From Deltaproteobacteria bacterium (GTDB lineage Bacteria > BMS3Abin14): a stretch of DNA of 64,000 nucleotides. The notes beneath the pieces are model-generated. The model searched no databases, was not told the origin of the DNA, and saw only the letters and a program-made list of their open reading frames with translations. The stretch spans positions 1 to 64,000 of the forward strand of contig JAADHJ010000011.1 in NCBI GenBank assembly GCA_013151915.1. The letters are read 5' to 3'. Each line of letters starts with the position of its first letter. Position 1 is the first letter of the stretch. The position numbers and the translations under genes were made by a program. This document shows, one piece after another, positions 175-52,073 of this stretch.

Positions 175-329
175 GATGACTTCGCAATAAGTCATCAATG
201 CGCCCATTAATGGGCGCGCAAATCAATGGTTTGCAGCGCAAGTTGTTGATTTGTAAGGAAAGTGAAAATGACACTTTTCGCTTTCCGTGGAATAAAAAGC
301 CATGAATGGACTTTTTACGACCCTATCAA
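175..329 (+). repeat. R1 element, copy a (full length, 155 bp)
   Basis: R1 runs from GATGACTT to CCCTATCAA and is a chain of hairpins: GATGACTT/AAGTCATC, a GGCGCC-type stem, AAATC/GATTT, GGAAAG/CTTTCC, and GTAAAAAGCCAT/ATGGACTTTTTAC. The two ends carry inverted AAAAAGTC/GACTTTTT tracts. This copy starts just after the stop of the upstream gene. No open frame is conserved between copies. Confidence 0.85.
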
Positions 330-335
330 AATTAA

Positions 336-463
336 TTCACCACAGCGTGACCACTTACAGGTCACACCACAGGGTTGTTGCACAGGGAAAAACCTTTAAA
401 GATTAGTATTTTTTACTTTAAAACCCTGTGGAGCAGCCTGTAAGCCGGCTGCGCTGTGGTAAA
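336..463 (+). repeat. R2 palindromic element, copy a
   Basis: Large imperfect inverted repeat. The outer arms are CCACAG at 340-345 and CTGTGG at 454-459; the inner arms are CCACAGGGTT and AAACCCTGTGG. The left arm holds a GTGACC/GGTCAC hairpin and the right arm a GCAGCC/GGCTGC hairpin, with an AT-rich centre. The copy at 29921-30066 resembles its reverse complement. R1a and R2a together fill the gap before the aminotransferase gene. Confidence 0.75.
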
Positions 464-528
464 ATAAAATGATTCATCATTTGGTTTTTCGGGTGAAACA
501 TACACATTTTCGCGGGAGGTAGATGCTG

Positions 529-1673
529 ATGATCAAGAAGAGGATATATTCGCCAGGTCCGGTGGACGTATCTCCATATCTCCATACACTGCGCTGGAGA
601 TGGCTCAGCCGATTATCCACCACAGGGCACCGGAGTTCATAACCGTCCTGAAGGAGGTTTTCGATGGTCTGAAGTTCATCTTCCAGACCAGAGGTGATGT
701 GCTGCTGTTCACCTCGTCCGGGACCGGGGCCATGGAAGGCGCCGTTGCCAACATCCTGAACCCGGGTGAAAAGGCCATCTGCGTAAACGGCGGAAAATTT
801 GGCGAGCGATGGGCCCAGCTCGTGTCTACCTATGGCGGCATCCCCGTGGTAATTGATGTTCCCTGGGGCCAGGCGGTTGACCCGGCGGTCATCGCCGAGA
901 AGTTGGAAGACGACCCCGGGATCAGGGCGGTCTACGTTCAGGCCAGCGAGACGTCCACCGGGGTGTCCCATCCGGTTAAGGCCATCGCTGAGATCGTCAA
1001 CCGCTACGAGGACAAGCTCATCATTGTTGACGGCATCACCGCGGTAGGGGTTATGAACCTGCCCTTTGACGAGTGGGGACTGGACGTGGTCGTGGGGGGA
1101 TCCCAGAAGGCATGGCGGCTTCCTCCCGGCCTGTCCTTCGCCGCCGTCAGCGACAAGGCCTGGGCGGCTGTGGCTAAGTGTACACAGCCCAGATACTACT
1201 TCGACTGGGCCAAGGAGAGGAAGAACGCCGCCAAACCGAGCACGGCCTACACCCCGGCCGTTTCCCTCATCCTTGGGCTCAGGCAGGTGATACGCGAGAT
1301 CAGGAAAGAGGGCCTTGAGGACATGTTCGCAAGGTGCGCTTCCTACGCCGAGGCTACCCGTGAGGCCATGAAGGCCATAGGGCTGAGGCTTTTCGCGCCC
1401 GACTCTCCGTCCGATTCCATAACCGCCGTTCTTGCCCCCGAGGGGATGGACGCCCAGGCCATTGTCAAGAATCTGAGCGTAAAATATGGGATCACAGTGG
1501 CCGGTGGTCAGGACAACGCCAAGGGAAAGATCTTCCGTCTTTCCCACATGGGCTACCTGGACGGCCTGGATATGGTAACCGCCATCGCCGCCGTGGAGAT
1601 GACTCTCAGGGATTTGGGGCACAAGGTTGAACTCGGCGCGGGCGTCCGCAGGGCCGAAGAGATACTCGTCTGA
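529..1673 (+). CDS. Class V aminotransferase (SerC/alanine-glyoxylate type), frameshifted near the N-terminus
   Basis: PLP-dependent class V aminotransferase. The fold-defining stretch SSGTGAMEGAVAN, the VDGITAVG segment and the PLP lysine in GGSQKAW (codon 1107-1109) are intact. The expected start is ATG 529, nine bases after GGGAGG (514-519), giving MIKKRIYSPGPVDVSP. An 8-bp tandem duplication at 570-585 then throws the frame out; removing one copy joins it to ALEMAQPIIHHR at the family's usual length. As written, only a product starting at ATG 600 (357 aa), without the PGP segment, is possible. serA follows after 13 bases, so a role as phosphoserine or serine/glyoxylate transaminase is likely but not proven. 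The shift may be a real mutation or an assembly error. Confidence 0.75.
570..585 (+). repeat. 8-bp tandem duplication causing a frameshift
   Basis: ATCTCCAT occurs twice in direct succession. Deleting one unit restores a continuous frame from the RBS-supported ATG at 529 through the PGP motif into the conserved MAQPIIHHR segment that starts at base 600. Confidence 0.8.
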
Positions 1674-1686
1674 AAGGGGGGCGGTG

Positions 1687-3273
1687 ATGAAGGTACTTGT
1701 AAGCGACAAGTTGTCCCCGGCCGGGGTGGAGATACTTGAAAGGACCCCCGGCCTCTCGGTGGACGTGAACACCGGCCTGAAACCGGAGGAACTCAAGGAG
1801 ATTATCGGACAGTACGACGGCCTGGTGATCCGCAGCGCCACAAAGGTCACCGGGGAAATCATCCAGGCGGCCTCCCGCCTCAAGGTCGTCGGCCGGGCCG
1901 GTATCGGGGTGGACAATGTCGACATCCCGGAGGCCACGAAAAGGGGGATCGTGGTCATGAACACCCCCGGCGGAAATACGGTGACCACCGCCGAACACGC
2001 CATCTCCATGATGTGTTCCCTGGCCAGGAATATCCCGCAGGCCGACGCGGGCATGAAGGCCGGCCGGTGGGACAAGAAACTCTACATGGGCGTTGAGCTC
2101 ATGAACAAGACGCTGGGCATCATCGGAGTCGGTAATGTCGGCTCCATTGTGGCTAACAGGGCCCAGGGGCTCAGGATGAACGTCATCGCCTACGATCCGT
2201 ATATCAGCGAAAAGGCCGCCGAGAAGATGGGCGTGGAGTTGGTTGATCTTGAAGAGTTATACAGGCGGTCCGATTTTATCAGCATCCATGTTCCCAAGAC
2301 CGATGAGACGAAGAACCTGATCGACATCGAGGTGTTCAAGAAGATGAAGAAGGGGGTCCGGATCATCAACTGCGCCCGTGGGGGTATTGTGAACGAGGCC
2401 GACATGGCGGATGCCTTGAAGAAGGGGCTTGTGGCCGGAGCTGCATTCGATGTCTTCTCGAGTGAGCCGCCGGACAAGGACAACCCCCTGCTGGGGCTGG
2501 ATAACGTCATCCTCACCCCCCATCTGGGCGCCTCCACCGGGGAGGCCCAGGTGAACGTGGCCATTGCGGTGGCAAACCAGATCGCTGATTACCTCGTCAA
2601 CGGGACCATCACCAACGCGCTTAACGTGCCGTCCGTGAGCGGAGACCTTCTCCCGAAGGTCCGGCCCTACCTCGATCTGGCCGACAAACTGGGAAGCCTA
2701 ACGGCCCAGCTCGTGGAATTTGCCCCCAAATCCGTGGAGGTCCGCTACGCCGGGTCTGTGCGTGATCTGCCCCTCGAGCCCATTACCATAAGCGTCCTGA
2801 AGGGAATACTGGAACCGGTGCTTGGCGTTGGCGCGGTAAACTTCGTGAACGCCACTGTTCTGGCTACCGACAGAGGCCTGAAGGTCAACGAGGTGAAGAG
2901 TTCGGAACCCGGGAACTACAGCAATCTCATCGAGGTTACCCTGTCCTCGGGTAACGATAAGATGGTGGCTGAGGGGTATATCTTCGAGGGTAGGGAACCG
3001 AGGATCGTCAGCATCGACGGATTCTCCATGGAGGCTATTCCCGAGGGTCACGTGCTGGTCCTCCGCAATGATGACCGTCCGGGCGTCATCGGCAACCTCG
3101 GCAAGACGCTGGGCAGTCACGGCATCAATATCGCCAGTATGCAGATAGGCCGCGACGAGCCGGGCGGGGAAGCTCTTTCTTTCATCCAGGTCGACTCGGA
3201 GCCCGGCGACAATGTCATCGATGCCCTCATGAAGCTGCCGCACATCAAGACCGTAACCAGGGTGAATTTCTAG
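1687..3273 (+). CDS. serA: D-3-phosphoglycerate dehydrogenase SerA
   Basis: First step of serine synthesis: oxidises 3-phosphoglycerate to phosphohydroxypyruvate with NAD. The 528-aa length fits the long form: split substrate domain, Rossmann domain with GVGNVG at 147-152, an allosteric substrate-binding domain, and a C-terminal ACT domain beginning near VLVLRNDDRPGVIG. Catalytic Arg231 (CARGG), Glu260 (SSEPP) and His279 (TPHLG) are present. ATG 1687 follows a G-rich RBS just after the aminotransferase stop; an in-frame upstream start would overlap that gene. The ACT domain suggests serine feedback control (family knowledge). The pair probably forms one serine operon. Confidence 0.96.
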   Translation: MKVLVSDKLSPAGVEILERTPGLSVDVNTGLKPEELKEIIGQYDGLVIRSATKVTGEIIQAASRLKVVGRAGIGVDNVDIPEATKRGIVVMNTPGGNTVTTAEHAISMMCSLARNIPQADAGMKAGRWDKKLYMGVELMNKTLGIIGVGNVGSIVANRAQGLRMNVIAYDPYISEKAAEKMGVELVDLEELYRRSDFISIHVPKTDETKNLIDIEVFKKMKKGVRIINCARGGIVNEADMADALKKGLVAGAAFDVFSSEPPDKDNPLLGLDNVILTPHLGASTGEAQVNVAIAVANQIADYLVNGTITNALNVPSVSGDLLPKVRPYLDLADKLGSLTAQLVEFAPKSVEVRYAGSVRDLPLEPITISVLKGILEPVLGVGAVNFVNATVLATDRGLKVNEVKSSEPGNYSNLIEVTLSSGNDKMVAEGYIFEGREPRIVSIDGFSMEAIPEGHVLVLRNDDRPGVIGNLGKTLGSHGINIASMQIGRDEPGGEALSFIQVDSEPGDNVIDALMKLPHIKTVTRVNF

Positions 3274-3345
3274 GGTTTTCGGGGCGCGGGTCGGCGGTAA
3301 TCCGGCCTGCGCCTTATTGCGTCCGGAAAAAACGAGGCTTTTCCC

Positions 3346-4596
3346 ATGAAGAAACCAGAAGGTTCCTGGCTGCTGCCCACCGGTGTTTTCGAGATGCCCC
3401 CCGCCAGGGCGGCGTTTATAAGAAGGGTGGAAGGGCAGATCATGGATGCTTTCCGGCTGTGGGGGTACCGGGAGGTTCGCACCCCGGCCATGGAGTACCT
3501 GGAGACCATGGCCCAGGGACTTGAGGCGGCCGAATTGGATATGGCCTTCAAGCTGGTGGACCGGGCCACGGGCAGGGTGATGGTCCTGCGGTCCGATATG
3601 ACGCCCCAGGTCGCGCGTATGGCGGCCCTGGCCCTTCAGGATGTTCCATATCCCCTGCGGCTGTGCTATGTCTCGGATGTCTACCGTTATCCCAGGGACC
3701 CCAGTCATCCCAGGCGGGAGCTGATCCAGGCGGGGGCCGAACTTCTGGGTCCGGGCGACCCACAGGCCGACGCGGAGGTGATCGCTCTTGCCGTGGAGTC
3801 CCTGAAAAGGATGGGATTTTCAGGGATCAGGATCTCCTTGGGGCAGGTCAGCTACGCCAGGGGTTTGTTGAAGGAGTGCGGTCTGTCCAGGGAAACGGAG
3901 GATCTCCTCATCGGAGCCGCGGACAGGAAGGACGTTGGGGAGGTCGGACGAATCCTTGACCGGACGAACGTACAACCATCCCTGAGGCAGTCGGTCCTCT
4001 CCCTGGCCGAGCTGCGCGGCGGCCTCGAGGTAATAAGGAAAGCCGGGAAGGGTGCCCCAAACGGCGAGTGTTCGGACGCCCTTTCCAACCTTATGGAGGT
4101 TCTTGACCTTGCTGTTTCCCACGGCGTCGATGCCCATCTCATCGAGGTGGACCTGGGAGAGCTGTCCTCGTTCAGATATCATACGGGAATCGTCTTCTCC
4201 GGTTTCGTTTCGGGCGCGGGCAGGGCGATTCTGAAGGGCGGAAGATACGATGATCTGGTTGGGAAGTTCGGTCGTCCCGCCCCGGCCACCGGTTTTGCCA
4301 TTGATATCCTGGAATTAGTTGAGATCGTGTCGAGGACCGAAGTCAGGCACGGGGGTGTTGATTACCTCTTTGTGAACAGGTCCGGAGACCAGGCGAGAGG
4401 GCTGTCCGCCGCCATGGAACTGAGACGTAAGGGCCGGGGAGTATTTTGTCTTATCCAGGACCTGGGCGATGAGGATCTTCCGGCCTTCGCCGGGGCCCAC
4501 GGGATCAAGACGATAATTGTTCTGGAAGACGGGGGGTTGAGGAGATGGGACAGCAAGGCCGGCAGATCCACCCCGTGTGATATTGATGCTCTATAA
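3346..4596 (+). CDS. hisZ: ATP phosphoribosyltransferase regulatory subunit HisZ
   Basis: 416-aa HisS paralogue. It keeps the class II aminoacyl-tRNA synthetase-like core (LRSDMTPQVAR, RLCYVSDVYRY, GGRYDDLVGKFG, PATGFAIDI). Its early sequence LLPTGVFEMPPARAA and its short C-terminal region point to HisZ rather than histidyl-tRNA synthetase. HisZ pairs with short-form HisG to allow catalysis and histidine feedback in the first step of histidine synthesis; HisG is not in this window. It lies 72 bases after serA, and hisZ next to purA is an arrangement I recall from Geobacter relatives. Confidence 0.88.
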   Translation: MKKPEGSWLLPTGVFEMPPARAAFIRRVEGQIMDAFRLWGYREVRTPAMEYLETMAQGLEAAELDMAFKLVDRATGRVMVLRSDMTPQVARMAALALQDVPYPLRLCYVSDVYRYPRDPSHPRRELIQAGAELLGPGDPQADAEVIALAVESLKRMGFSGIRISLGQVSYARGLLKECGLSRETEDLLIGAADRKDVGEVGRILDRTNVQPSLRQSVLSLAELRGGLEVIRKAGKGAPNGECSDALSNLMEVLDLAVSHGVDAHLIEVDLGELSSFRYHTGIVFSGFVSGAGRAILKGGRYDDLVGKFGRPAPATGFAIDILELVEIVSRTEVRHGGVDYLFVNRSGDQARGLSAAMELRRKGRGVFCLIQDLGDEDLPAFAGAHGIKTIIVLEDGGLRRWDSKAGRSTPCDIDAL

Positions 4597-4602
4597 TAAA
4601 TA

Positions 4603-4727
4603 GGGTCGTCCTGGAAATGAGTACCTGAAGGATGGCCAGATTTTGTGAAAAGCTAATTTAACACAGGGTGCACAGAGTTTCACCAGCCGTCGCTGAAGCT
4701 ATGGCTGGCAGGCAGGGTTAAATCAAA
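4603..4727 (+). repeat. R3 block, copy a (about 125 bp)
   Basis: Begins GTCGTCCTGGAAATGAG and runs through a CCAGCC/GGCTGG hairpin to CAGGCAGGGTT. The reverse complement of 8341-8466 matches it nearly base for base over about 110 bp, and 26706-26792 shares its first 85 bp or so. Confidence 0.85.
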
Positions 4728-4737
4728 AAAATATTCC

Positions 4738-4960
4738 CCTCACCTGACTTCTTTGCGTAACTCTGCGGTATGTGCGGCCTACCATCGAGCCGCCTTTGCG
4801 TAACTCTGCGTTACAGCTCTAAAGCACAGGTTTTATCGCAGAGGGCCGCCCTTCGACAGGCTCAGGACAGGCGCGGAGGGCGCCACTCTCAGGCGCTGCC
4901 GCAAAGGGCCGCAAAGTAAAATAATGAGGTACGCATTATTGTGATGAACCATAATTTATT
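4738..4960. other. Repeat debris between hisZ and purA
   Basis: No gene is visible. CTTTGCGTAACTCTGCG occurs twice, near 4751 and 4796. A CCCTTCGACAGGCTCAGGAC segment sits near 4851 and recurs in a similar form near 30034. A short R4-like GGTACGCATTA motif near 4926 precedes the purA ribosome-binding site. Confidence 0.5.
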
Positions 4961-4975
4961 TCCGGAGGACAGGTA

Positions 4976-6265
4976 ATGCCCAATGTTGTGGTTATCGGTG
5001 CCCAGTGGGGCGACGAGGGTAAGGGAAAAATCGTTGACGTCTATACCGAGCGGGCCGATGTGGTGGTGCGTTGCCAGGGGGGGCACAATGCGGGGCACAC
5101 CGTTGTCGTAGGGGGGGAGACGACCATTCTCCACCTCATCCCTTCCGGCATCCTGCATTCCGGAAAACGGTGCCTTATTGGAAACGGGGTGGTGGTGGCT
5201 CCCGACGCGTTGGTAGCTGAAATGGACTCCGTTGCCGCTAAGGGGGTCGAGTTGGATGGGAGGCTTTTCATAAGCGAGAGGGCCCACGTCATCATGCCCT
5301 ACCATGTCGCCCTGGACCAGGCGAGGGAGGAGAGGAGAGGGGTCAAGGCCATCGGAACAACGGGCAGGGGAATCGGGCCTGCCTACGAGGACAAGGTGGC
5401 CCGTACCGGGATACGGATCGGTGACATACTTAACCCTCCTGTTTTCCGCGAGAAGCTCGAGGCGGCCCTCGAATTCAAGAACTTCATCCTCGCCAGGTTC
5501 TTCGGCAAAGAGACATTCGATGAGTTGGAGGTTTTCGAATCCACCATGCTCCTGGCTGAGCGTATCCGGGGGTACGTCGCCGATACCACAGATCTGCTGC
5601 AGCAGGGGATTGCCGATGGGAAAAACGTCCTGTTCGAAGGGGCGCAGGGAAGCCATCTTGACATCGACCACGGTACCTATCCCTTCGTAACCTCGTCCTC
5701 CACCACGGCCGGAGGCGCCTGTACCGGTTCGGGAGTGGGACCCGGTTCCATCGACGAGGTGATCGGTATCTCCAAGGCGTATACCACGAGGGTGGGCGGG
5801 GGACCGTTTCCCACGGAACTGGGAGGATCGCCGGGTGAACGCATCAGGGATGCGGGAGATGAGTACGGGGCCACCACGGGAAGGCCAAGGCGGTGTGGAT
5901 GGTTCGACGCCGTTGTGCTGGGCCAGAGCGCGATGGTTAATGGACTGACCGGGCTTGTGGTCACAAAGCTCGATGTTCTGGACGGGATCGATCCCGTCCG
6001 GATCTGTACAGGATATTCCTGCGGCGATCTCAGGTTTGACCATGTTCCGGCGGACCTGGACCAGTTGACCCTGTGCAAGCCCATTTACGAGGATCATCCG
6101 GGTTGGAAAGGGACAACAAGGGGTTTGAGAGAGTGGAAGGCCCTTCCCAAAGAGGCTCAGGCCTACATAAGGAGGCTCGGGGAGTTGACCGGGATTCCCA
6201 TCGCCCTGGTTTCCACAGGGCCCGAGAGGGACGATTATGTGGAGCTGATCGATCCGTGGAGCTGA
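4976..6265 (+). CDS. purA: Adenylosuccinate synthetase PurA
   Basis: Converts IMP and aspartate to adenylosuccinate with GTP, the first committed step to AMP. The 429-aa length is typical. The N-terminal GDEGKGK loop (12-18) includes catalytic Asp13, and His41 sits in GGHNAGHT. TTGRGIGPAYEDK and the C-terminal TGPERDD region are conserved. ATG 4976 follows GGAGGACAG. PurB, the next enzyme of the branch, is at the far end of the window, so the two are not in one operon. Confidence 0.97.
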   Translation: MPNVVVIGAQWGDEGKGKIVDVYTERADVVVRCQGGHNAGHTVVVGGETTILHLIPSGILHSGKRCLIGNGVVVAPDALVAEMDSVAAKGVELDGRLFISERAHVIMPYHVALDQAREERRGVKAIGTTGRGIGPAYEDKVARTGIRIGDILNPPVFREKLEAALEFKNFILARFFGKETFDELEVFESTMLLAERIRGYVADTTDLLQQGIADGKNVLFEGAQGSHLDIDHGTYPFVTSSSTTAGGACTGSGVGPGSIDEVIGISKAYTTRVGGGPFPTELGGSPGERIRDAGDEYGATTGRPRRCGWFDAVVLGQSAMVNGLTGLVVTKLDVLDGIDPVRICTGYSCGDLRFDHVPADLDQLTLCKPIYEDHPGWKGTTRGLREWKALPKEAQAYIRRLGELTGIPIALVSTGPERDDYVELIDPWS

Positions 6266-6393
6266 TGAGCCCGCGGTTGGAAAAAAATATTCGTATGTAA
6301 GAAATAGACGACAATGTGCGAGGGAAACTTTATTCATGAAATATCGTGGGTGTGAGCCCATGGTATTGAATGGGATGGTATTGTACGAGACGG

Positions 6394-6422
6394 TTGACAA
6401 TAAAGACAGTAAGTATTAGATA
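6394..6422 (+). promoter_or_regulatory. Putative sigma-70 promoter for the tRNA pair
   Basis: A perfect -35 TTGACA at 6394-6399 is followed after 17 bases by a weak -10, TAGATA (6417-6422), a dozen bases upstream of tRNA-Lys. Confidence 0.5.
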
Positions 6423-6433
6423 GTGACCCTCCG

Positions 6434-6510: not shown

Positions 6511-6519
6511 ATAAATATG

Positions 6520-6597
<78 letters not shown>

Positions 6598-6607
6598 AAA
6601 AGCAATG

Positions 6608-7349: not shown

Positions 7350-7376
7350 AAGACCACGAACCCAAATTCGGTTACG

Positions 7377-7761: not shown

Positions 7762-7966
7762 GTTCATCCGGCTGGCTAATGCGTACCTTAACCCGGTGTC
7801 CAACGTTCAATGTTGATAGGGTCGCAAAAAGTCCATTTATGGCTTTTTGCTCTACGGAAAGCGAAAAGTGTCATTTTCACTTTCCTTACAAATCAACAAC
7901 TTGTTTGGGCGCCCATCAGTGGGCGTAATGATGACTTTTTGCGAAGTCATCATTGTTCAACGGCGG
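7762..7966 (+). repeat. R4 block, copy a (interrupted by R1b)
   Basis: GTTCATCCGGCTGGCTAATG leads through GCGTACCTTAACCCGG to CAACGTTCAATGTT, breaks off at R1b, and resumes with TGTTCAACGGCGGGATTC. The uninterrupted version is at 26490-26549. Confidence 0.85.
7813..7953 (-). mobile_element. R1 element, copy b, inserted into R4
   Basis: About 140 bp, minus orientation. The ends carry a perfect 12-bp inverted pair, TCGCAAAAAGTC (7822-7833) and GACTTTTTGCGA (7933-7944). TGTT is found on both sides (7811-7814 and 7954-7957) but only once at the empty site (26536-26539), consistent with a short target duplication. The exact boundaries are uncertain by two or three bases. Confidence 0.85.
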
Positions 7967-7970: not shown

Positions 7971-8212
7971 CAAGATCCAGAGTCCAGAGTAGAAAAGGGG
8001 ACGCGGCAATCCCGGGCGACTTGTCACGGCGAAGTTCGAAAAACGAAGACGGAAGCTGAAAAAGCCGTCGCGGCGCCCTCCGGGCGCTACGGGATCGCTT
8101 CACTCGGATACGGTTCGCGATGACCAGCGAAGTCATTGCGAGGAGCATCGAGGGAGACGAGAGTGACGCGGCAATCTCATGCGGAGTTGAAAAGGTAGAC
8201 GGAAGCAATCCC
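7971..8212 (+). repeat. R5 and R7 repeat blocks
   Basis: A short CCAGAGTCCAGAGTA tract (R5) is followed by GAAAAGGGGACGCGG and two degenerate R7 units containing CATTGCGAGGAGCATCGAGG and GACGCGGCAATCTCATG. 26590-26700 carries the same succession. No gene is seen. Confidence 0.7.
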
Positions 8213-8346: not shown

Positions 8347-8466
8347 CCACCCTGCCTGCCAGCCATAGCTTCAGCGACGGCTGGTGAAACTCTGTGCACC
8401 CTGTGTTAAGTTAGCTTTCCACAAAATCTGGTCATCCTTCAGGTACCCATTTCCGGGATGAACCAG
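8341..8466 (-). repeat. R3 block, copy b
   Basis: Near-identical reverse complement of 4603-4727, including the CCAGCC/GGCTGG hairpin and the ACCTGAAGGATGACCAGATT segment. It lies just downstream of the ArnT-like gene. Confidence 0.85.
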
Positions 8467-10016: not shown

Positions 10017-10061
10017 CCGTTGAGTAAAAAGCCATTGAAGGACTTTTTACGACCCTACCAA
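10017..10061 (+). repeat. R1 element, 3' fragment
   Basis: Only the last hairpin and terminus (GTAAAAAGCCATTG to CCCTACCAA) are present, directly before full copy c. The two could be a tandem pair or a nested insertion remnant. Confidence 0.75.
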
Positions 10062-10065
10062 GGTT

Positions 10066-10199
10066 GATGACTTTATAAGAGGTCATCACCGCGCCCTCTT
10101 TAGGGCGCTCAAATCGAAGATTTGTGAGGAAAGTGAAAATGACATTTTTCGCTTTCCGTTGAGTAAAAAGCCATGAATGGACTTTTTACGACCCTACCA
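10066..10199 (+). repeat. R1 element, copy c (full)
   Basis: GATGACTTTATAAGAGGTC through the complete hairpin chain to GACCCTACCAT. Its right end overlaps the last codons and the stop of the minus-strand AEC transporter gene. Confidence 0.85.
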
Positions 10200-11873: not shown

Positions 11874-11984
11874 GATGATGGACTCGCAAAAAGTCCATCA
11901 TCGCGCCCGGGGAGGAAAGTGAAAATGACACTTTTCGCTTTTCGTGGAGTAAAAAGCCACGAATGGACTTTTTACAACCCAATC
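11874..11984 (+). repeat. R1 element, copy d (111 bp, lacks central stems)
   Basis: GATGATGGACTCGC through GTCCATCATC, then straight to GGAAAGTGAAAATGACAC and the terminal hairpin, ending CAACCCAATCA. The central GGCGCC and AAATC stems are missing. The ribosome-binding site of the helicase gene begins four bases later. Confidence 0.8.
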
Positions 11985-12010
11985 ATGAAAGGAGCTTGAA
12001 AGACGTTGCT

Positions 12011-14682: not shown

Positions 14683-14817
14683 TTGACAGGGTCGTAAAAA
14701 GTCCATCAATGACTTTTTACTCCACGGAAAGCGAAAGGTGTCATTTTCACTTTCCTCACAAATCTTCGATTTGCGTGCTCTGAAGGGGGCGCGATGATGA
14801 CTTCGCAAGAAGTCATC
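14683..14817 (-). repeat. R1 element, copy e (full)
   Basis: TTGACAGGGTCGTAAAAAGTC through to GACTTCGCAAGAAGTCATC, minus orientation, 21 bases before greA. Confidence 0.85.
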
Positions 14818-14838
14818 ATTTTTGGAGGGTAAAATCCC

Positions 14839-15473: not shown

Positions 15474-15893
<420 letters not shown>

Positions 15894-15921
15894 GCAGTCG
15901 TTTTTTAAGGTTTTCAACGGA

Positions 15922-16055
15922 GATGACTTTGTAAAAAGTCATCGAGGCGCCCGCTTGGGGCGCTCAAATCGGAGATTTGTGAGGAAAGTGGAAATGACAT
16001 TTTTCGCTTTCCGTTGAGTAAAAAGCCGTGAATGGACTTTTTACGACCCTATCAA
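15922..16055 (+). repeat. R1 element, copy f (full), between glnB and glnA
   Basis: GATGACTTTGTAAAAAGTCATC through the GGCGCCC/GGGGCGC stem to GACCCTATCAA. It occupies most of the glnB-glnA spacer and would be part of a glnBA transcript as a chain of hairpins. Confidence 0.87.
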
Positions 16056-18388: not shown

Positions 18389-18545
18389 TTGATAGAGTCG
18401 CAAAAAGTCCGACCCGGGACTTTTTGCACAACGGAAAGCGAAAAGCGTCGTTTTCGTTTTCCTCACAAATCAATGACTTATGTAGCAAGTCGTTGATTTG
18501 GGCGCCCCACGCGGGGCGCGTTGATGACTTCCTATGAAGCCATCA
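18389..18545 (-). repeat. R1 element, copy g (full), between lspA and lgt
   Basis: TTGATAGAGTCGCAAAAAGTC through to GATGACTTCCTATGAAGC. Read on the minus strand, its first bases (TTGATGGC) contain the TGA stop of lspA at 18543-18545. Confidence 0.83.
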
Positions 18546-25762: not shown

Positions 25763-26504
25763 GAGAGTGGATCTGCTGCTCGTAGCCAGGGGCCTCGCGC
25801 CGAGCAGGGAGAAAGCTCAGGCGCTGATCCTCGCCGGCCGGGTCTACTCCGGCGACAGGAGAGTGGATAAAGCCGGGCACCGCCTGCCGGTGGACGTTTC
25901 GCTCCAGGTCCGGGAAGGGCTGCCCTACGTGGGGCGCGGAGGGCTGAAGCTTGAAGCCGCCCTGGACCGGTTCGGTGTCGACCCTGCGGGGAAACGGTGT
26001 CTTGATGTGGGGGCATCAACCGGAGGTTTTACGGATTGTCTTCTTCAGAGGGATGCGGCCCATGTTTTCGCGGTGGATGTCGGGTATGGCCAGCTGGCAT
26101 GGAAGCTGCGGTCCGACGTCCGGGTAACTGTCCTTGAAAGGACCAATTTTCGGACCATCTCCGACGATGTCCTGCCCCATGATCTTGAATTGGCGGTGGT
26201 GGATGTGTCCTTTATTTCACTGAGGCTCATACTTCCCCGCCTGCGGGTGTTTCTTCGAAACGGTGCGGACGCGGTTGTCCTGGTGAAGCCCCAGTTTGAA
26301 GCTGGAAGGAAAAATGTCGGGAAAGGCGGGATAGTCAGGGACCTCAGGGTTCGTCGGGAAGCCCTGGCCGGCATCCTTGCGGCGGCGGCGGAGGAGGGGT
26401 TCGGGATTCGGGGATCCATGGAGTGCCCTGTTCCCGGAGCGGACGGCAACGTGGAGTTCCTGGCGCATTTAACTAAGGTGTTATCGGATGGTTCATCCGG
26501 TTAA
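25749..26504 (+). CDS. tlyA: TlyA-family rRNA 2'-O-methyltransferase / putative hemolysin
   Basis: 251 aa. The N-terminal S4 RNA-binding domain (RVDLLLVARGLAPSREKAQ) is followed by an FtsJ-like Rossmann methyltransferase with SAM motif CLDVGASTGGFTDCLL and late motifs VVDVSFISLRLILP and VLVKPQFEAGR. Characterised TlyA methylates 16S and 23S rRNA ribose; hemolysin labels are historical. ATG 25749 overlaps the dxs end by 14 bases. xseB-ispA-dxs-tlyA is a recurrent neighbourhood. Confidence 0.92.
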   Translation: MPARERVDLLLVARGLAPSREKAQALILAGRVYSGDRRVDKAGHRLPVDVSLQVREGLPYVGRGGLKLEAALDRFGVDPAGKRCLDVGASTGGFTDCLLQRDAAHVFAVDVGYGQLAWKLRSDVRVTVLERTNFRTISDDVLPHDLELAVVDVSFISLRLILPRLRVFLRNGADAVVLVKPQFEAGRKNVGKGGIVRDLRVRREALAGILAAAAEEGFGIRGSMECPVPGADGNVEFLAHLTKVLSDGSSG

Positions 26505-26549
26505 CGCGTACCTTAACCCGGTGTCCAACGTTCAATGTTCAACGGCGGG
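26490..26549 (+). repeat. R4 block, copy b (uninterrupted empty site)
   Basis: GGTTCATCCGG, GCGTACCTTAACCCGG and CAACGTTCAATGTTC, then AACGGCGGGATTC, continuous at the point where the 7762-7966 copy is split by R1b. It overlaps the last codons of tlyA. Confidence 0.85.
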
Positions 26550-26552
26550 ATT

Positions 26553-26600
26553 CAGGGTCCAGGGTCCAGGGTCCAGAGTCCAGAGTCCAGGGTCCAGAGT
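26553..26600. repeat. R5 tandem repeat
   Basis: Six to seven direct GGTCCAG/AGTCCAG units in a row, the reverse-complement orientation of the CTCTGGA tracts elsewhere. Confidence 0.85.
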
Positions 26601-26604
26601 AGAA

Positions 26605-26700
26605 AAGGGGACGCGGGGAACAGAGAGCTGTCATTGCGAGGAGCATCGAGGGAGACGAGAGTAACGCGGCAATCCCGGGCGGAGCTGAAAAAGTCAAGAG
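26605..26700 (+). repeat. R7 block
   Basis: GAAAAGGGGACGCGG, then CATTGCGAGGAGCATCGAGG and AACGCGGCAATCCCG. It matches 8133-8212 in order and orientation. Confidence 0.75.
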
Positions 26701-26705: not shown

Positions 26706-26792
26706 ACCCTGTGAAACTCTGTGCACCCTGTGTTAAATTAGCTTTTCACAAAATCTGGTCATCCTTCAGGTACTTATTTTCAGGATGATCCT
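26706..26792 (-). repeat. R3 block, copy c (shortened)
   Basis: CTGTGCACCCTGTGTTAAAT, CACAAAATCTGGTCATCC and TTCAGGATGATCC match the first 85 bases or so of the 4603-4727 copy in reverse orientation. It ends 18 bases before nadK. Confidence 0.85.
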
Positions 26793-27682: not shown

Positions 27683-27713
27683 GAGAGACTTTTTACGAGG
27701 TTGTCAAAGCTGG
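27683..27713 (+). repeat. R6 start-proximal repeat, copy b (before recN)
   Basis: GAGAGACTTTTTACGAGG followed by TTGTCAAAGCTGGA. Shares its sequence with the glnB and pyrH upstream regions and part of the R1 terminus (GACTTTTTACGA). Confidence 0.7.
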
Positions 27714-32668: not shown

Positions 32669-32702
32669 AATAATAAAGGTACGCATTAGCCGGATGAACC
32701 AA

Positions 32703-32751
32703 AAATCTTCGATTTGCGCGTCCCTTAAGTAGGCGCGTTTATGACTTCGCA
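32703..32751 (-). repeat. R1 element, partial copy h
   Basis: AAATCTTCGATTTGCGCG, a GGCGCG segment and TATGACTTCGCAG reproduce the GATGACTT-side half of R1 in minus orientation; the other half is missing. Confidence 0.6.
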
Positions 32752-40460: not shown

Positions 40461-40535
40461 TAGGGGAAGGAAGCCATTCCCCACCGAAGGAAAAAGAATC
40501 GAAGAGACTTGTTGCGAGGTTGTCAAAATTGAGCA
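40461..40535 (+). repeat. R6 start-proximal repeat, copy c (before pyrH)
   Basis: GGAAGCCATTCCCC, then ATCGAAGAGACTTGTTGCGAGG and TTGTCAAAATTG, aligned with the glnB copy over about 70 bases. Its GAGG (40516-40519) and TTG (40529-40531) look like the actual ribosome-binding site and start codon of pyrH. Confidence 0.7.
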
Positions 40536-45849: not shown

Positions 45850-46955
45850 CCTTGCCGGCAAACAGTGTGACGGCCCCCCGGAGGCTTACCCGGAGTATTG
45901 AGGTTGGGCGCGTTGCGGTGGGGGGAGAGGCCCCGGTCTCCGTTCAGTCCATGACGAATACGCCCACCGCGGATGTGGATGGAACACTGGCCCAGGTGCA
46001 GGCCCTCGCCCAGGCGGGATGTGATATCATTCGAATTTCCGTCCCCGACATCCCTTCCCTCGAAGGTTTTGCCCGGCTGAGGGCCAACGTGAGGGTTCCC
46101 CTGGTCGCCGATATCCATTTTGACTACCGTCTTGCCGTCGGGGCCCTTGACGCCGGGGCCGACGGCGTGAGAATAAATCCGGGCAACATCGGGTCGGTAA
46201 AAAAAGTCGGGGAAGTGATCAGGGCCGCCGCGGATAAGGGAGCTTCCGTCAGGATCGGTGTCAACGCCGGATCCCTCGAGAGGGATATCCTCAAGTCATA
46301 TGGGCACCCAACCCCCGGGGCGCTGGTGGAAAGCTGTCTGCGCTCCGTGGACCTGGTGGAGGGGATGGGGTTTCACGAACTCAAACTCTCCGTCAAGGCG
46401 TCCGGCCCCATGGAAACGGTGGAAGCCTATCGCCTCCTGTCCGAGGAGGTCGATTATCCGCTCCATATCGGTGTTACTGAGGCAGGTACCGCCCTTTGCG
46501 GCTCGGTGAGGACTTCTGTGGCTCTGGGGCTTCTTCTTTCAGAGGGAATAGGCGACACGCTCAGGGTTTCCCTGTCGGGGGACCCGGTTCCCGAGGTCCG
46601 AGCCGGCATCGAGATCCTTCAGTCCCTGGGAATGAGGGGCGGTCCATGGGTTGTGGCCTGCCCAACCTGCGCCCGAACCGAGGTGGACGTGGCGGGTCTG
46701 GCCGCCGAGGTGGAAAAGCGGTTGAGGGACATATCCGCTCCGCTGAAGGTGGCCGTAATGGGATGTCCCGTAAATGGGCCGGGAGAGGCCCGGGAATCCG
46801 ACGCGGGCATCGCAGGGGGGAAAGGCGTCGCCATCCTTTTCGTGGAGGGGAAGGTTAAAGGGAAGGTGGGACTCCACGAGGCCGTGGATGCTTTGATGGA
46901 TGAGGTGAGAAGACTGGAGCAGAAGTGGACGAAGGCACAGGGGGTAGAGAAGTAA
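45846..46955 (+). CDS. ispG: 4-hydroxy-3-methylbut-2-enyl diphosphate synthase IspG
   Basis: 369-aa iron-sulfur enzyme of the MEP pathway. SVQSMTNTPTADVDGTLAQV opens the TIM barrel; the [4Fe-4S] cysteines lie in VACPTCART and MGCPVNGPGEARE. Short form without the extra domain of plant enzymes. Overlaps rseP by four bases. With dxr it puts two MEP steps in the same operon as uppS. Confidence 0.96.
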   Translation: MTLPANSVTAPRRLTRSIEVGRVAVGGEAPVSVQSMTNTPTADVDGTLAQVQALAQAGCDIIRISVPDIPSLEGFARLRANVRVPLVADIHFDYRLAVGALDAGADGVRINPGNIGSVKKVGEVIRAAADKGASVRIGVNAGSLERDILKSYGHPTPGALVESCLRSVDLVEGMGFHELKLSVKASGPMETVEAYRLLSEEVDYPLHIGVTEAGTALCGSVRTSVALGLLLSEGIGDTLRVSLSGDPVPEVRAGIEILQSLGMRGGPWVVACPTCARTEVDVAGLAAEVEKRLRDISAPLKVAVMGCPVNGPGEARESDAGIAGGKGVAILFVEGKVKGKVGLHEAVDALMDEVRRLEQKWTKAQGVEK

Positions 46956-47004
46956 GGGACTCTGGACTCTGGACACTGGACTCTGGACACTGGACTCTGG
47001 ACCA
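46956..47004. repeat. R5 tandem repeat between ispG and proS
   Basis: Six CTCTGGA/CACTGGA units in direct order, starting immediately after the ispG stop and ending about 30 bases before proS. Confidence 0.85.
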
Positions 47005-47033
47005 GGGATTAACAACCCGATACGGGAGAATTC

Positions 47034-48812
47034 ATGAAATATTCGAAATATTTCCTTCCAACGCTTCGTGAGGTGCCCGCGGACGCTGAAATCGTCAGTC
47101 ATCAGCTCATGTTGAGGGCCGGGATGATACGCCGAGTCGCCGCCGGGATTTACGATATCCTGCCCATGGGACTCAGGGTCATCCGGAAGGTGGAGGGTAT
47201 CATCAGGGAGGAGATGGACCGCGCCGGGGGCATTGAGGTTATTCTCCCGAGCATTCAGCCTGCCGAACTCTGGGGAGAAACGGGCCGCTGGGACTTCTAC
47301 GGAAAGGAGCTGCTTCGCATAAAAGACCGCCATGGCCGTGAATTCTGCTACGGCCCTACCCACGAGGAGATCGTGACCGACCTTGTAAGGCGGGAGATCC
47401 GTTCCTACAGACAGTTGCCCGTTACGCTCTATCAGATCCAGACAAAATTCCGGGACGAGATCAGGCCGCGTTTCGGCCTCATGAGGGGGCGTGAGTTCAC
47501 TATGAAGGACGCCTATTCCTTCGACAGGGACAAGGACGGGGCGGAGGCCAGCTACAGGGCGATGTACGATGCCTACACGGCCATCTTCTCACGCTGTGGT
47601 CTTGAGTTCAGGGCTGTTGAGGCCGATACGGGAAAGATCGGTGGAAGCCTGTCCCATGAATTCATGGTATTGGCGGATACGGGGGAGGACCGGGTGGTAA
47701 GCTGTGATTCATGTGATTACGCCGCCAACCTTGAGATGGCGGATGTTGCCTCCTCCACCGGTGATCCAGTCGTGGAAGCTATGGGGGAGAGCAAGTCCGG
47801 GGGCTCTGCGGCGCCCGGTACCGGCGGGAAGGGGACTCGGAAAGTTAAAACCCCGGGGCGGCGGACCGTGGACGAAGTCACGGCGTTTCTCGGTCTGGAA
47901 CCTACCGATCTTGTCAAGACGATTATCCTGTCGGGAGAGAAAAAGGCCGTGGCCGTACTCGTGCGCGGGGACCACGAGGTCAATCCGGTCAAGGTACGTC
48001 GGATGTTGGGCGATGAGACCATGGACCTGGCTGACCCCGAAGTGGTGGAAAGGGTCACCGGTGCCCCCACAGGTTTTGCCGGTCCTCTGGGAATCGATCT
48101 TCCGGTATATGCCGACAACGCCGTTGCCTTCATGTCGAACTTCGTCACGGGCGGCAATGAGAAGGACGTCCATGTGGTAGGTGTTGACCTTTCCCTGTTT
48201 GAGGTGACGGCTTTTGCCGACCTGAGAGAGGCCCGGGAGGGGGATCCATGTCCCCGGTGCGGGGGAAAGTTGTCTTTCCTCCGGGGGATCGAGGTGGGGC
48301 ACATATTCTACCTCGGCAAAAAATACAGTGAGGCCATGAAAGCCGTCTTTCTGGATGAGACAGGCCAGGAGAGGACTATCGAGATGGGCTGCTTTGGAAT
48401 CGGGGTTGGAAGGACCGTTGCAGCTTCCATAGAACAGAATTATGATGAAAGGGGTATTATCTGGCCTCTCCCCATTGCGCCGTTCGCCGCAAGCCTCCTC
48501 TGCCTGAACATCACCGATCCCGAGGTACACGAGGCCGCGGACAGGATCTATGCCGCCCTGTGCGATGGGGGTGTGGAAGTCCTGTACGATGATCGGGATG
48601 AGCGTCCCGGCGTCAAGTTCAACGATGCGGACCTGACAGGGATTCCCATCAGGGTGACGGTTGGTAAGAAGGGCCTGAAGGAGGGAAACGTGGAGCTGCG
48701 TCACCGGGCGACCGGGGAGGAAAGCAAGGTTCCCGTGGAGGGTGTTGTCCGGGCGGTCAGAGAACTCATCCGGGGCGCGAGGCAGGCGTCATTCAGCGAT
48801 CACAACGAATAA
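47034..48812 (+). CDS. proS: Prolyl-tRNA synthetase ProS (bacterial type with editing domain)
   Basis: 592-aa class II synthetase. The core has GRWDFYGKELLRIKDRHGRE-type motif 1-2 elements, CYGPTHEEIVTDLVRR, FRDEIRPRFGLMRGREFTM and a C-terminal anticodon domain with DDRDERPGVKF. The large INS insertion (about 225-410) that clears Ala-tRNA-Pro is present, with KTIILSGEKKAVAVLVRGDHE. ATG 47034 follows ACGGGAGAATTC. R5 repeats separate it from ispG, but it likely stays on the same transcript. Confidence 0.96.
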   Translation: MKYSKYFLPTLREVPADAEIVSHQLMLRAGMIRRVAAGIYDILPMGLRVIRKVEGIIREEMDRAGGIEVILPSIQPAELWGETGRWDFYGKELLRIKDRHGREFCYGPTHEEIVTDLVRREIRSYRQLPVTLYQIQTKFRDEIRPRFGLMRGREFTMKDAYSFDRDKDGAEASYRAMYDAYTAIFSRCGLEFRAVEADTGKIGGSLSHEFMVLADTGEDRVVSCDSCDYAANLEMADVASSTGDPVVEAMGESKSGGSAAPGTGGKGTRKVKTPGRRTVDEVTAFLGLEPTDLVKTIILSGEKKAVAVLVRGDHEVNPVKVRRMLGDETMDLADPEVVERVTGAPTGFAGPLGIDLPVYADNAVAFMSNFVTGGNEKDVHVVGVDLSLFEVTAFADLREAREGDPCPRCGGKLSFLRGIEVGHIFYLGKKYSEAMKAVFLDETGQERTIEMGCFGIGVGRTVAASIEQNYDERGIIWPLPIAPFAASLLCLNITDPEVHEAADRIYAALCDGGVEVLYDDRDERPGVKFNDADLTGIPIRVTVGKKGLKEGNVELRHRATGEESKVPVEGVVRAVRELIRGARQASFSDHNE

Positions 48813-48874
48813 AAGACAGTTTTTTTCATCTGACATCCACGCTGACGGACAGATTCCCACGGTTCGGCGCGCGG

Positions 48875-50200
48875 TTGCTGGATCTTCTTCTGTCCAATTC
48901 ACCCATAAACAGAATCCTTTTGGAATCCGCCCTGAAGGCCGGCAGGAAAAGGTTGAGCCGTGCACTCAAAAATGGATTTCGCCGTATATTGGTGGTGGGC
49001 GATCTGAACATTGGAGATGCGGTTAACCTGCAGGTGGCCGTCTGTGCCCTGAAGCGGTTTTTCCCGGATGCGCGGATCGACTATGTCGTCAACCGTAATG
49101 CAGAGCCGTTGATTCAGGGCAATCCGCATATATCGGTCCTTCTTCCTGTTTTCAGCGGTTCCCCCGTACCGGATGACGGCGATATCGAGGCTTTGAGGGA
49201 TGCTGTACAAAAGGAAGATTACGATGTCATATTCAATTTCTGTCCGTTTTTTGATGCTTCGGTTTTCAGCGGAAGCGCCGGGGGCCCGATTGTAATCGGC
49301 CCTGATGCGATGGTCTATATGCTTCTGTACGGGGACCATGAGAAAAACCGGATAAACAATATCCTGTATCAGGCGGATCAGTTCATTTACGCGCTCCTTT
49401 CGGATATAACAGGTCTGGAAAGGAAGAGAACCTTCAGGGGGACGACCGTCTATCTTTCAGATGACGCCCTGGTGAAGGCAGAGGAGTTTCTGGTCCATGA
49501 AGGAATTTTTCACGGAGGGCCCATACTGCTTTACAATCCCGATACGACTTCCCCGTTTACACGGATTCCCCTGGATTATCAGGCGGACCTGTTGAAAAGA
49601 CTCCTGAGATCGGCTGGGGGCGTTACTATCCTGATGGGCGCCGGGCATGTAAAGAAGGGCATTGAACAGGCCCTCCTGGAAATGCTCCCGGCGGATATGC
49701 GGGGGAAAATACATATCGTACCTGAATCAATTCCCCTGGATTGCTATGTCGCACTGATTGATCTCTCAGACGTTTACATTACGGGTGATACGGGCCCTCT
49801 CCATCTGGCATCGGCCTTGAAAGTTTCAAAATCCGGCAGGTCTGTTTTCAGGAACCGGACCGCCGTATTCTCAATATTCGGCGCCACATCTTCGAGGATC
49901 TATGGGTACGATTCCAATTTGAAAGGTTATCTTCCCTCGCATCAGAATGCGTCTTCGAATGTTTATGTCTCGAAAAGCCCATGCCGAAACATTACATGTG
50001 TAAACAAAAGGGCAAAAACGTGCCGGAAGGTTCGCTGCTTTGATTACCTGGACACGGAGAAGATCGCGGGGGACGTGACAGACTACCTGAAACGCGGAAC
50101 GCGTTTCAGAGTCCAGAGTCCGGAGTCCGGAGTCCAGAGTCCAGAGAGGGGAAAGGCGGATGCGGGGATGCCCCTCGACGAGACTCGGGGCAGGCGGTGA
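48875..50200 (+). CDS. GT9-like (ADP-heptose/LPS heptosyltransferase family) glycosyltransferase
   Basis: 441 aa. RRILVVGDLNIGDAVNLQVAV resembles the GT9 opening (core ILVVGDLNIGDAV), and VYITGDTGPLHLASAL the nucleotide-sugar site. AVFSIFGATSS also fits the family. A lipopolysaccharide or cell-surface glycan role is inferred. The start is uncertain: TTG 48875 has no good ribosome-binding site, and no ATG or GTG lies between the proS stop and it in frame. The last 35 or so residues (from about RGTRFRVQSPESG) are translated R5 repeat and are unlikely to be ancestral sequence. Confidence 0.72.
   Translation: MLDLLLSNSPINRILLESALKAGRKRLSRALKNGFRRILVVGDLNIGDAVNLQVAVCALKRFFPDARIDYVVNRNAEPLIQGNPHISVLLPVFSGSPVPDDGDIEALRDAVQKEDYDVIFNFCPFFDASVFSGSAGGPIVIGPDAMVYMLLYGDHEKNRINNILYQADQFIYALLSDITGLERKRTFRGTTVYLSDDALVKAEEFLVHEGIFHGGPILLYNPDTTSPFTRIPLDYQADLLKRLLRSAGGVTILMGAGHVKKGIEQALLEMLPADMRGKIHIVPESIPLDCYVALIDLSDVYITGDTGPLHLASALKVSKSGRSVFRNRTAVFSIFGATSSRIYGYDSNLKGYLPSHQNASSNVYVSKSPCRNITCVNKRAKTCRKVRCFDYLDTEKIAGDVTDYLKRGTRFRVQSPESGVQSPERGKADAGMPLDETRGRR
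50106..50147. repeat. R5 tandem repeat inside the 3' end of the GT9 gene
   Basis: GAGTCCAGAGTCCGGAGTCC-type units are read in frame as RVQSPESGVQSPERG. Confidence 0.8.
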
Positions 50201-50326
50201 CGAGGAGGTACATGAGTGCTTGGGAGCATGGGCGAATGGAAGAGTGGCCACGGAGACACGGGGGTATGGGGGTATGGGTGTATGGAAGTTTGGCTATCGA
50301 GGTGTCGAGGTATCGAAGTTACTGAA

Positions 50327-50360
50327 ACTCTGGACACTGGACTCTGGACCTTGGACTCTT
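50327..50360. repeat. R5 tandem repeat before the LysE-type gene
   Basis: CTCTGGACACTGGACTCTGG and CCTTGGACTC. Preceded by TATCGAGGTGTCGAGGTATC, a motif also present near 32882. Confidence 0.8.
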
Positions 50361-50379
50361 TTTTTAGAGGTTCTATGAA

Positions 50380-51021
50380 TTGAAACTCTTATTGCTGATG
50401 CCCCTGGTTTACGTGATGGGATTCCTCACAGCCATTCCCATCGGGGCCACCCAAATAGAAATTGCAAAGCGTTCCCTGAACGGTTATGTGCCCCAGGCGA
50501 TGATGGTCGTGCTGGGTTCTGTAATATCGGATGTGATGTATGGTTTTATAGCCATGTTCGGTTTCGCGCCGTTTCTGCACAACAGAAAGGTCGAGGCGAT
50601 CTTCTGGCTAGCGGGGGCGGGGATCCTGGCGATATTGGGTATTTTTACGATTACCCGGCACGGGAGCCGGAAAGAGATAAAGGTTAAGGATGTATTGCTT
50701 GAAGATTACGGCCTGTCTCTCTTTGTGGGGTTTTCCCTGGCCGTCATCAATCCGCCCATGATGCTCTGGTGGCTGGTATGCGCCTCCTTTGTCAAGAGCC
50801 TGGGGCTGGTTCAAAGCTACAACGCGGTATCTTCATCCCTGTTTCTTCTGGCGGGTGGATTGGGGATCGCCTCCTATCTGACTGTTTTGGCCCTGGCGTT
50901 GAAAAAGGCCGGCAGGTTCATCACCCCAAAACTTGAGCATAGGATCACGGTATTTTTAGGGGCTGTTCTCCTGCTCCTGTCGATCTATTTCCTGGTCCGC
51001 TTCATAATGGTGTTTGTGTAA
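50380..51021 (+). CDS. LysE/RhtB-type amino-acid exporter family protein
   Basis: 213 aa, six hydrophobic segments. The N-terminal VMGFLTAIPIGATQIEIAKRS matches the LysE superfamily opening (PxGP-type loop as IPIGAT), and LAVINPPMMLWWL the central half repeat. Substrate unknown. TTG 50380 is about ten bases after AGAGG; ATG 50375 is out of frame and ends at once. The gene is isolated between repeat tracts. Confidence 0.75.
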   Translation: MKLLLLMPLVYVMGFLTAIPIGATQIEIAKRSLNGYVPQAMMVVLGSVISDVMYGFIAMFGFAPFLHNRKVEAIFWLAGAGILAILGIFTITRHGSRKEIKVKDVLLEDYGLSLFVGFSLAVINPPMMLWWLVCASFVKSLGLVQSYNAVSSSLFLLAGGLGIASYLTVLALALKKAGRFITPKLEHRITVFLGAVLLLLSIYFLVRFIMVFV

Positions 51022-51150
51022 AGACAGTTCCTGGTTCCTAGTGCTTAGTGCCTGGTTAAATTCAAGTTCAAACCGCGCATTTCCTGAAACACCAGGAACT
51101 AGGTACCAGGAACTGCTCTTCCATGCTCCGTGTCCCCGCGTCTGCTTTTT

Positions 51151-51180
51151 CTCTGGACTCTGGACCCTGGACTCTGGACT
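51151..51180. repeat. R5 tandem repeat
   Basis: Four CTCTGGA/CCCTGGA units. The preceding 51022-51110 has ACCAGGAACTAGGTACCAGG-type short repeats and no gene. Confidence 0.8.
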
Positions 51181-51292
51181 TCCTGTCACGCCGGCCTGTC
51201 ACGTCGTAGTTCAGGGAACGAAGGCGGATGAACCCTGGACTATCCCTGCTCCACTCCGGGTATTGCATTGCCCATGGGGTTATGCTAAATAC

Positions 51293-51420
51293 TACCCGGT
51301 TATCGCTTCTTTAACGGTGGATTTATTGCGAGTCCACCCAGAAGGCTCTGAGCAGTGTGCGTGGTCTTGAGAACACCGGGTTATCTTCGTTTAAGAGCGG
51401 CAAGTCCCGCTCTTTTGTAT
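51293..51420 (+). ncRNA. Candidate structured RNA ending in a terminator
   Basis: ACCCGGT (51294-51300) can pair with ACCGGGT (near 51375-51381), enclosing a GGTGGA/TCCACC hairpin (near 51317-51338). An intrinsic terminator follows: AAGAGCGG/CCGCTCTT (51393-51414) then TTTTGTATTTTA. It matches no RNA family I can name. It could be a small RNA, a leader, or only a terminator in unrelated sequence. Confidence 0.3.
51393..51420 (+). terminator. Rho-independent terminator upstream of rimP
   Basis: Eight-base stem AAGAGCGG/CCGCTCTT, loop CAAGTC, then TTTTGTATTT. Confidence 0.7.
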
Positions 51421-51437
51421 TTTATGGGTCGAATTTT

Positions 51438-51530
51438 GATGACTTTGCAAAAAGTCATCAAAGCGCCCGCTTAGGGGCGCTCAAATCGAAGATTTGTGAG
51501 GAAAGTGAAAATGACACTTTTCGCTTTTCT
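51438..51530 (+). repeat. R1 element, copy i (3'-truncated, 93 bp)
   Basis: GATGACTTTGCAAAAAGTCATC through AAATCGAAGATTTGTGAGG to CACTTTTCGC. The final GTAAAAAGCC hairpin and CCCTATCAA end are absent. It lies 33 bases before rimP. Confidence 0.83.
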
Positions 51531-51563
51531 TCGCTGTTTACGGTCTGATATCGAGGCACGGCC

Positions 51564-52028
51564 ATGGACACCCACGGCATAGTAGACTATATCACCCGGA
51601 TTGTGGAGCCTATTACCGGACGGCTTGGCCTTGAGTTGGTGGATGTGGCCTTCAGGAGCGAGGATGGACGGTGGGTCCTGAGGGTGACCATTGATCATGA
51701 AGATGGGGTGAAGGTGGCTCACTGCACGGCGGTAAGCAAGGAATTGGGCGTTCACCTTGAGGTGGAAGATCCGATTTCCGTTCGGTATCACCTTGAGGTC
51801 TCATCTCCGGGTCTTGACAGACCGCTGAAGAATGAGGGGGATTTTGAACGCTTTGCGGGGCGTCAGATCCTTATCAGAACCCATCGATCGGTTGCAGGAA
51901 GAAAGAAGATCCGAGGGATTCTGGAGGGCGTCGAAAACGGGATGGCGCAGGTGCGGATGGCCGATGGGACCCTGGTGGAAGTGCCCATGGAAGATATGTC
52001 CTCCGCAAGGCTTGATTTCAGCCTTTGA
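51564..52028 (+). CDS. rimP: Ribosome maturation factor RimP
   Basis: 154 aa, needed for 30S maturation. VDYITRIVEPITGRLGLELVD opens the family (core EPITGRLGLELVDV); YHLEVSSPGLDRPLK is the strongest signature and the C-terminal SH3-like domain ends VPMEDMSSARL. ATG 51564 has only a weak GAGGCACGG site. It heads rimP-nusA-ylxR-infB. The stop TGA (52026-52028) overlaps the first bases of R1j. Confidence 0.95.
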   Translation: MDTHGIVDYITRIVEPITGRLGLELVDVAFRSEDGRWVLRVTIDHEDGVKVAHCTAVSKELGVHLEVEDPISVRYHLEVSSPGLDRPLKNEGDFERFAGRQILIRTHRSVAGRKKIRGILEGVENGMAQVRMADGTLVEVPMEDMSSARLDFSL

Positions 52029-52073
52029 TGACTTCGTAAAAAGTCATAAATGGACTTTTTACGGCCCTATCAA
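52027..52073 (+). repeat. R1 element, copy j (47-bp minimal derivative)
   Basis: GATGACTTCGTAAAAAGTCAT joins directly to AAATGGACTTTTTACGGCC and CTATCAA: both R1 termini without the interior. Lies between rimP and nusA. Confidence 0.82.

Follow-up and report, generated by a model that had tools for sequence, protein, structure and literature searches.

R1 copies in the window and across the family

The window, that is, the entire 64-kb stretch of DNA analyzed here, harbors copies of R1, a short, dispersed repeat, at eleven places listed in an initial annotation; all eleven proved real, with the boundaries moved by 1-2 bases (Table 1). The intergenic placement of R1 claimed in that annotation holds broadly, except that the copies at 11876-11985 and 18390-18545 touch heuristic ORF starts. 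The density that had been perceived as high does not stand: the window contains 8 R1 cores vs the ~5 expected from the genome average of one per ~13 kb and is, thus, only slightly rich.

Table 1. Repeats and related sites in the window (G001, sister species of the same genus)
Feature	Position	Strand	Remarks
R1, full length, long third hairpin, 155 bp	174..328	+	CM 178.5 bits; orthologous G001 site without a copy
R1, full length	7814..7952	-	CM 147 bits; 4-bp duplication ACAA/ACAT at flanks
R1, 3'-end fragment	10017..10060	+	4 bp upstream of the copy 10065..10199
R1, full length, 135 bp	10065..10199	+	CM 155.4 bits
R1, hairpins 2-3 mostly deleted	11876..11985	+	left end of the TGATGGACTCG type; 97.7 bits
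R1, full length	14684..14818	-	duplication AAAA; G001 orthologous site with a degraded different element
R1, full length	15921..16054	+	CM match; G001 without a copy
R1, full length, divergent	18390..18545	-	159.8 bits; G001 without a copy
R1, probable 5' fragment, part of hairpins 1-3	32701..32751	-	HMM 19.9 bits, weak
R1 without hairpin 5 and right end	51437..51530	+	CM match
Minimal R1, left terminal repeat facing the right one	52026..52072	+	same type at L070:220-266 and L093:1071
Paralogous empty site of R1 copy 7814-7952	26499..26572	+	54 bp, 96%, no gap, single 4-bp target
R2 end TGACAACCTCGCAAAAAGCC	15517..15536	-	
R2 end TGACAACCTCGTAAAAAGTC	27687..27706	-	
R2 end TGACAACCTCGCAACAAGTC	40506..40525	-	
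Repeated block	8132-8196		same as 26630-26694
Repeated block	8384-8464, 4602-4683		same as 26711-26791
Repeated block	7774-7814		same as 26499-26539

The exact ends of R1 are 5'-TGATGACTTCG...CGACCCTATCA-3'. That the copies share their ends was recognized at the outset, with a slight misplacement: the true ends are TGATGACTTC...CCCTATCA, and the originally assigned 'CCCTATCAA' is one A too long, this last A usually being the first base of a 4-bp target duplication. The termini form imperfect inverted repeats of ~20 bp, TGAnnnnnTCGYAAAAAGTC (TGATGACTTCGCAAAAAGTC / TGATAGGGTCGTAAAAAGTC). Full-length copies fall into classes of 135, 155, and 176 bp, of which the 155-bp class is separated from the 135-bp one by a longer third hairpin; all lie under the ~500-bp size limit of MITEs and are far too short to encode a transposase, and R1 contains no transposase gene.

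A search of the genome and its relatives, as proposed in the initial annotation, recovered about 170 R1 cores in the genome of the window, as well as matches in 11 of the 12 sampled genomes of the family. Specifically, a 30-base core (hairpin 4) has 170 matches in this 2.27-Mb genome vs 0 for the reversed-pattern control, and a 16-base core yields 181 vs 5 with the reversed control. Across the family, the 30-base core occurs 1 to 231 times per genome (170, 25, 1, 2, 143, 231, 88, 115, 21, 20, 68, and 42 in G000, the genome of the window, through G011), where the count of 1 in G002 is a single match with 3 mismatches that may be due to chance, and all copy counts are lower bounds given that R1 arrays break assemblies. 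Contigs start or end in or beside R1 in both G000 (C22, C30, C39, C43, and C59) and G005 (C4, C5, C9, C26, and C49). In the 29 genomes searched outside the family, the 30-base core is absent; the left-end hairpin has three matches in 2 of 181 other genomes, and no R1 was found in viruses, phages, or plasmids.

Target duplications, empty sites, and arrays

Multiple lines of evidence indicate that R1 is a non-autonomous mobile repeat, as originally surmised: 4-bp duplications, an exact empty paralogous site, and empty sites in a sister species. In the genome of the window, exact 4-bp duplications flank 10 of the 51 non-tandem copies vs 1.4 in shuffled pairs (maximum of 5 in 500), with the signal located directly outside TGAT/ATCA and stopping sharply on either side of the four positions. 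The duplications are also found at 12 of 18 copies in G004, where R1 appears recent (median 97% identity to the consensus), and at 4 of 7 copies in G005, that is, at 16 of 25 copies in these two genomes combined vs 2.3 shuffled; none of these 25 copies has a duplication of exactly 3 or 5 bp. An early reading of the duplications as 6-8 bp long was dropped because the position-by-position test gave exactly 4 bp. The target consensus is A-ANNT-TGA.

Within the window itself, the flanks of the copy at 7814-7952, when joined with one 4-bp target, match the sequence at 26499-26572. In G001, a sister species of the same genus, the genes are collinear with window positions 1-37094 at 80-89% identity, and none of the R1 copies of this region is present at the aligned places (37 kb aligned), although these orthologous sites demonstrate absence of R1 rather than an exact junction because the intergenic flanks have diverged. 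The possibility that R1 copies are restricted to orthologous sites, which would be at odds with mobility, is contradicted by this lack of shared copies. At the G001 sites (L107, C45) that correspond to window positions 10017-10199 and 14684-14818, there are what seem to be decayed termini of different elements of the TCGCAAAAAGTC type, and these two sites look as if they had been used repeatedly.

The copies also form arrays. At 29 of 100 full copies, another R1 end lies exactly 4 bp away, only one such end being inverted, and spacers other than 4 bp are rare. Some of the neighbors in these head-to-tail arrays are near twins, which points to local duplication, and others belong to different length classes, which points to independent insertion. 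Such self-targeting is explicable because an R1 end together with its duplication recreates the target motif.

Terminal repeats and the candidate source transposase

The initial annotation placed the transposase responsible for the movement of R1 elsewhere, and scanning of the transposase loci of the family for the R1 end motif indeed revealed, in another genome (G005, L117 1240-2906), an intact IS1182-like element that encodes a 520-aa transposase and is bounded by terminal repeats of the R1 kind, TGATGGACCCGCAATTAGTC and TGACGGCATCGCAAAAAGTA. The best-scoring family for this transposase is NCBIfam IS1182 (NF033551; E 1.6e-33), but the score of 116 bits does not reach the curated cut-off of 270, and therefore, we denote the element IS1182-like, on the basis of the transposase only: it shares the transposase signature of this family, albeit distantly, and carries R1-type ends. 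The Pfam domains DUF772 (2e-8) and DDE_Tnp_1 (5.7e-5) both score above their cut-offs. The proposed check for a transposase gene sharing the R1 termini thus yielded an intact element in G005 and such ends at broken homologous elements in two more genomes, namely, G008, where the homology stops at the repeat TGATGGCTTCGCAAAAAGTA (18/20 to the R1 end), and G001, where it stops at the repeat TGACGGACTCGCAAAAAGTA. The intact element itself lacks a matching duplication (ACCT/ATAT) and has an R1 copy in its left flank, and the R1 interior shows no similarity to the IS1182-like element beyond the ends. In the genome of the window, transposases are few (three rve matches and three Y1), with no DDE_Tnp_1 and no R1 ends at the rve genes, and only a fragment of the IS1182-like element remains, located right at a terminus of contig C23. 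Judging from the shared ends, the IS1182-like transposase is the most likely mover of R1, which in the genome of the window is probably dormant or reliant on a transposase that was lost or is unassembled.

Some observations could point to a different DDE transposase as the mover. R1 in G004 is recent, and yet that genome yielded no relative of the G005 transposase, so that the mover there may be another, more diverged transposase; furthermore, TCGYAAAAAGTC ends occur also outside the family. However, R1 ends bound none of the other PF01609 or PF00665 genes found in eleven genomes of the family, whereas the IS1182-like element bears R1-type ends in three genomes, which makes a different DDE enzyme improbable.

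Still less probable, to the point of being nearly negligible, is that R1 is a REP/BIME or IS200/IS605-type repeat moved in single-stranded form by a Y1 transposase (RAYT), with the hairpins serving as recognition elements. RAYT-linked REPs are common in bacteria, the genome of the window encodes two intact Y1 transposases, and R1, similarly to REP/BIME, consists of dispersed, clustered, intergenic hairpins. Y1 elements, however, make no target duplication, whereas R1 has exact 4-bp ones, and a DDE-type insertion sequence has the same kind of inverted ends. Unrelated sequence surrounds the complete Y1 genes, one of which has GGGACGTAGTTAAGTTG repeats of its own, and none of the three Y1 loci that were read is bounded by R1, leaving no linked Y1 partner. 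One Y1 transposase gene, a 333-aa frame at L068 1388-2480 (G000 C37), is bounded by inverted GGGACGTAGTTAAGTTGTTAAGTTG; in L149, an R1 copy is flanked by sequence resembling this one.

For IS1272, a well-described member of the IS1182 family, replacement of stem-loops with no duplication of the target was reported (PMC5678879). In R1, unlike IS1272, there are 4-bp duplications and no copy-specific stem-loop at the sites; we considered IS1272-like stem-loop targets and rejected them given that the flank complementarity equals that of shuffled pairs and the duplications are present.

Ends of the same kind are found in other repeats. One of these, R2, with the ends TGACAACCTCGYAAAAAGTC ... TGATGGACTTTTTGCGAGTCCATCA and a different interior, occurs in the window as well as in L073, L079, L083, and L096, and probably represents a further MITE that relies on the transposase of R1. 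In two distant genomes, there are MITE-like elements with R1-type ends and unrelated interiors (L207 1500-1635 in G053 and L206 1500-1660 in G103); the L207 element terminates on the right in GACTTTTTACGAGTTCATCA and shows a perfect duplication, CCAT. Because this element combines R1-type ends with a different interior, such ends are distributed more widely than R1 itself. The intergenic regions of the window additionally contain blocks of other dispersed repeats, GTCATTGCGAGGAGCATCGAGG, GGTACNCATT..GATGAACC, and GTCCAACGTTCAATGTTCAACG, whose order recurs at two or three sites, and a ~7-bp unit, CTCTGGACACTGGA, repeated in short tandem arrays (17544, 26546-26604, 46952-47012, 50086-50146, 50327, and 51150).

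Thus, R1 is very probably a MITE that has ends like those of an IS1182-like insertion sequence and depends on a transposase acting in trans. Under this scenario, the IS1182-like transposase would act in trans, binding the R1 ends, cleaving at their TG...CA tips, and joining these tips to a 4-bp staggered target, A-ANNT-TGA, giving rise to the 4-bp duplications; new copies would land 4 bp from the old ones, producing head-to-tail arrays. Common to all mobile forms are the ends: R1 and R2 have them, as do the minimal R1 copies, which keep nothing else.

The hairpin fold and its possible role in R1 spread

The ordered chain of five hairpins described in the initial annotation is supported by covariation. 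In a fold alignment of 39 sequences from seven genomes, 97.5% of the cells in the five hairpins are paired, and 12 pairs have changes on both sides vs 3.1 in shuffled alignments (none of 500 reaches 12), far above slid controls. Compensatory changes are present in all five hairpins: in hairpin 4, one pair alternates between U-G, C-G, G-C, and U-A, and in hairpin 5, U-A and C-G are swapped in 16 sequences.

Such compensation in each hairpin is what would be expected also of a repeated structured RNA or a cis-regulatory element at fixed host sites, such as a terminator, an mRNA stabilizer, or a riboswitch-like element. The orientation of R1 appears compatible with such a function, with 41 copies oriented along with the flanking genes vs 10 against (22 vs 7 for non-tandem copies), where the count covers sites with both neighbors oriented the same way, relies on simple codon-score gene calls, and includes array copies that are not independent. 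As a lead, this bias could equally stem from insertion polarity or from the loss of copies in an orientation that harms expression. Against a regulatory RNA, no R1 copy is common to the sister species at aligned sites; rare variants, which mostly arose after insertion, are equally frequent at paired and unpaired positions, so that no selection in place is seen; and G-U mismatches are not in asymmetric excess over A-C in the genome of the window (57 vs 49), such that RNA-strand selection, hinted at by the cross-genus alignment, was rejected. Neither is there a match to R1 in Rfam at the gathering score, with only two tRNAs detected in the window, nor did R1 show a consistent signal of terminator function or a general terminator signature. 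Hence a conserved regulatory RNA site at every copy, an alternative raised by the initial annotation, is contradicted, and we consider a regulatory RNA at fixed host sites highly unlikely.

The variants that segregate among the copies of the MITE suggest a different role for the fold. In the genome of the window, rare variants (in 1-2 copies) amount to 0.94 per paired vs 1.18 per unpaired column (p 0.25, leaving out hairpin 4, which was used to find the copies), whereas those common to more than 10 copies are about 17-fold rarer at paired columns, a contrast that subfamily history could exaggerate, since loops differ among subfamilies. From this one genome, we infer that the fold is kept in copies that seed new copies and decays once these are resident. 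The hairpin interior, being kept in the spreading copies, would then probably aid spread or make insertions tolerable, which is how we infer a role for the hairpins. More tentatively, and with somewhat greater doubt than credence, it is conceivable that the five-hairpin interior is selected because one-strand folding, of DNA during replication or of RNA, is needed for spread. If so, R1 would be a structure-dependent non-autonomous transposon rather than passive ends with filler.

Bacterial MITEs that have short duplications, lie between genes, and give rise to folded transcripts are well described (PMC10969869). R1 resembles these in its short, age-decaying duplications, intergenic location, and presence in tens to hundreds of copies, and shares with Correia, ERIC, Nezha, Chunjie (from Geobacter uraniireducens), and QMITE2 the small size, non-coding character, and inverted terminal repeats. 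What sets R1 apart from those MITEs (in the case of Chunjie, by description) is the chain of five distinct hairpins in a fixed order, preserved through compensatory changes in several genera, along with the head-to-tail arrays with the 4-bp spacer. R1 constitutes a new family of MITEs whose ends are IS1182-like, of a kind that is already known rather than a new category, albeit with an unusually well preserved fold.

The R1 case puts on record IS1182-type ends that are accompanied by 4-bp duplications and by self-targeting that yields head-to-tail arrays, and it accounts for several of the assembly breaks. Moreover, with tens to hundreds of copies in several related genomes, it presents a well-resolved natural experiment on why MITE interiors fold, one that also offers 4-bp duplications and a candidate source element. 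The contrast between rare and common variants suggests that the fold matters during the spread of R1 and not once a copy is resident.
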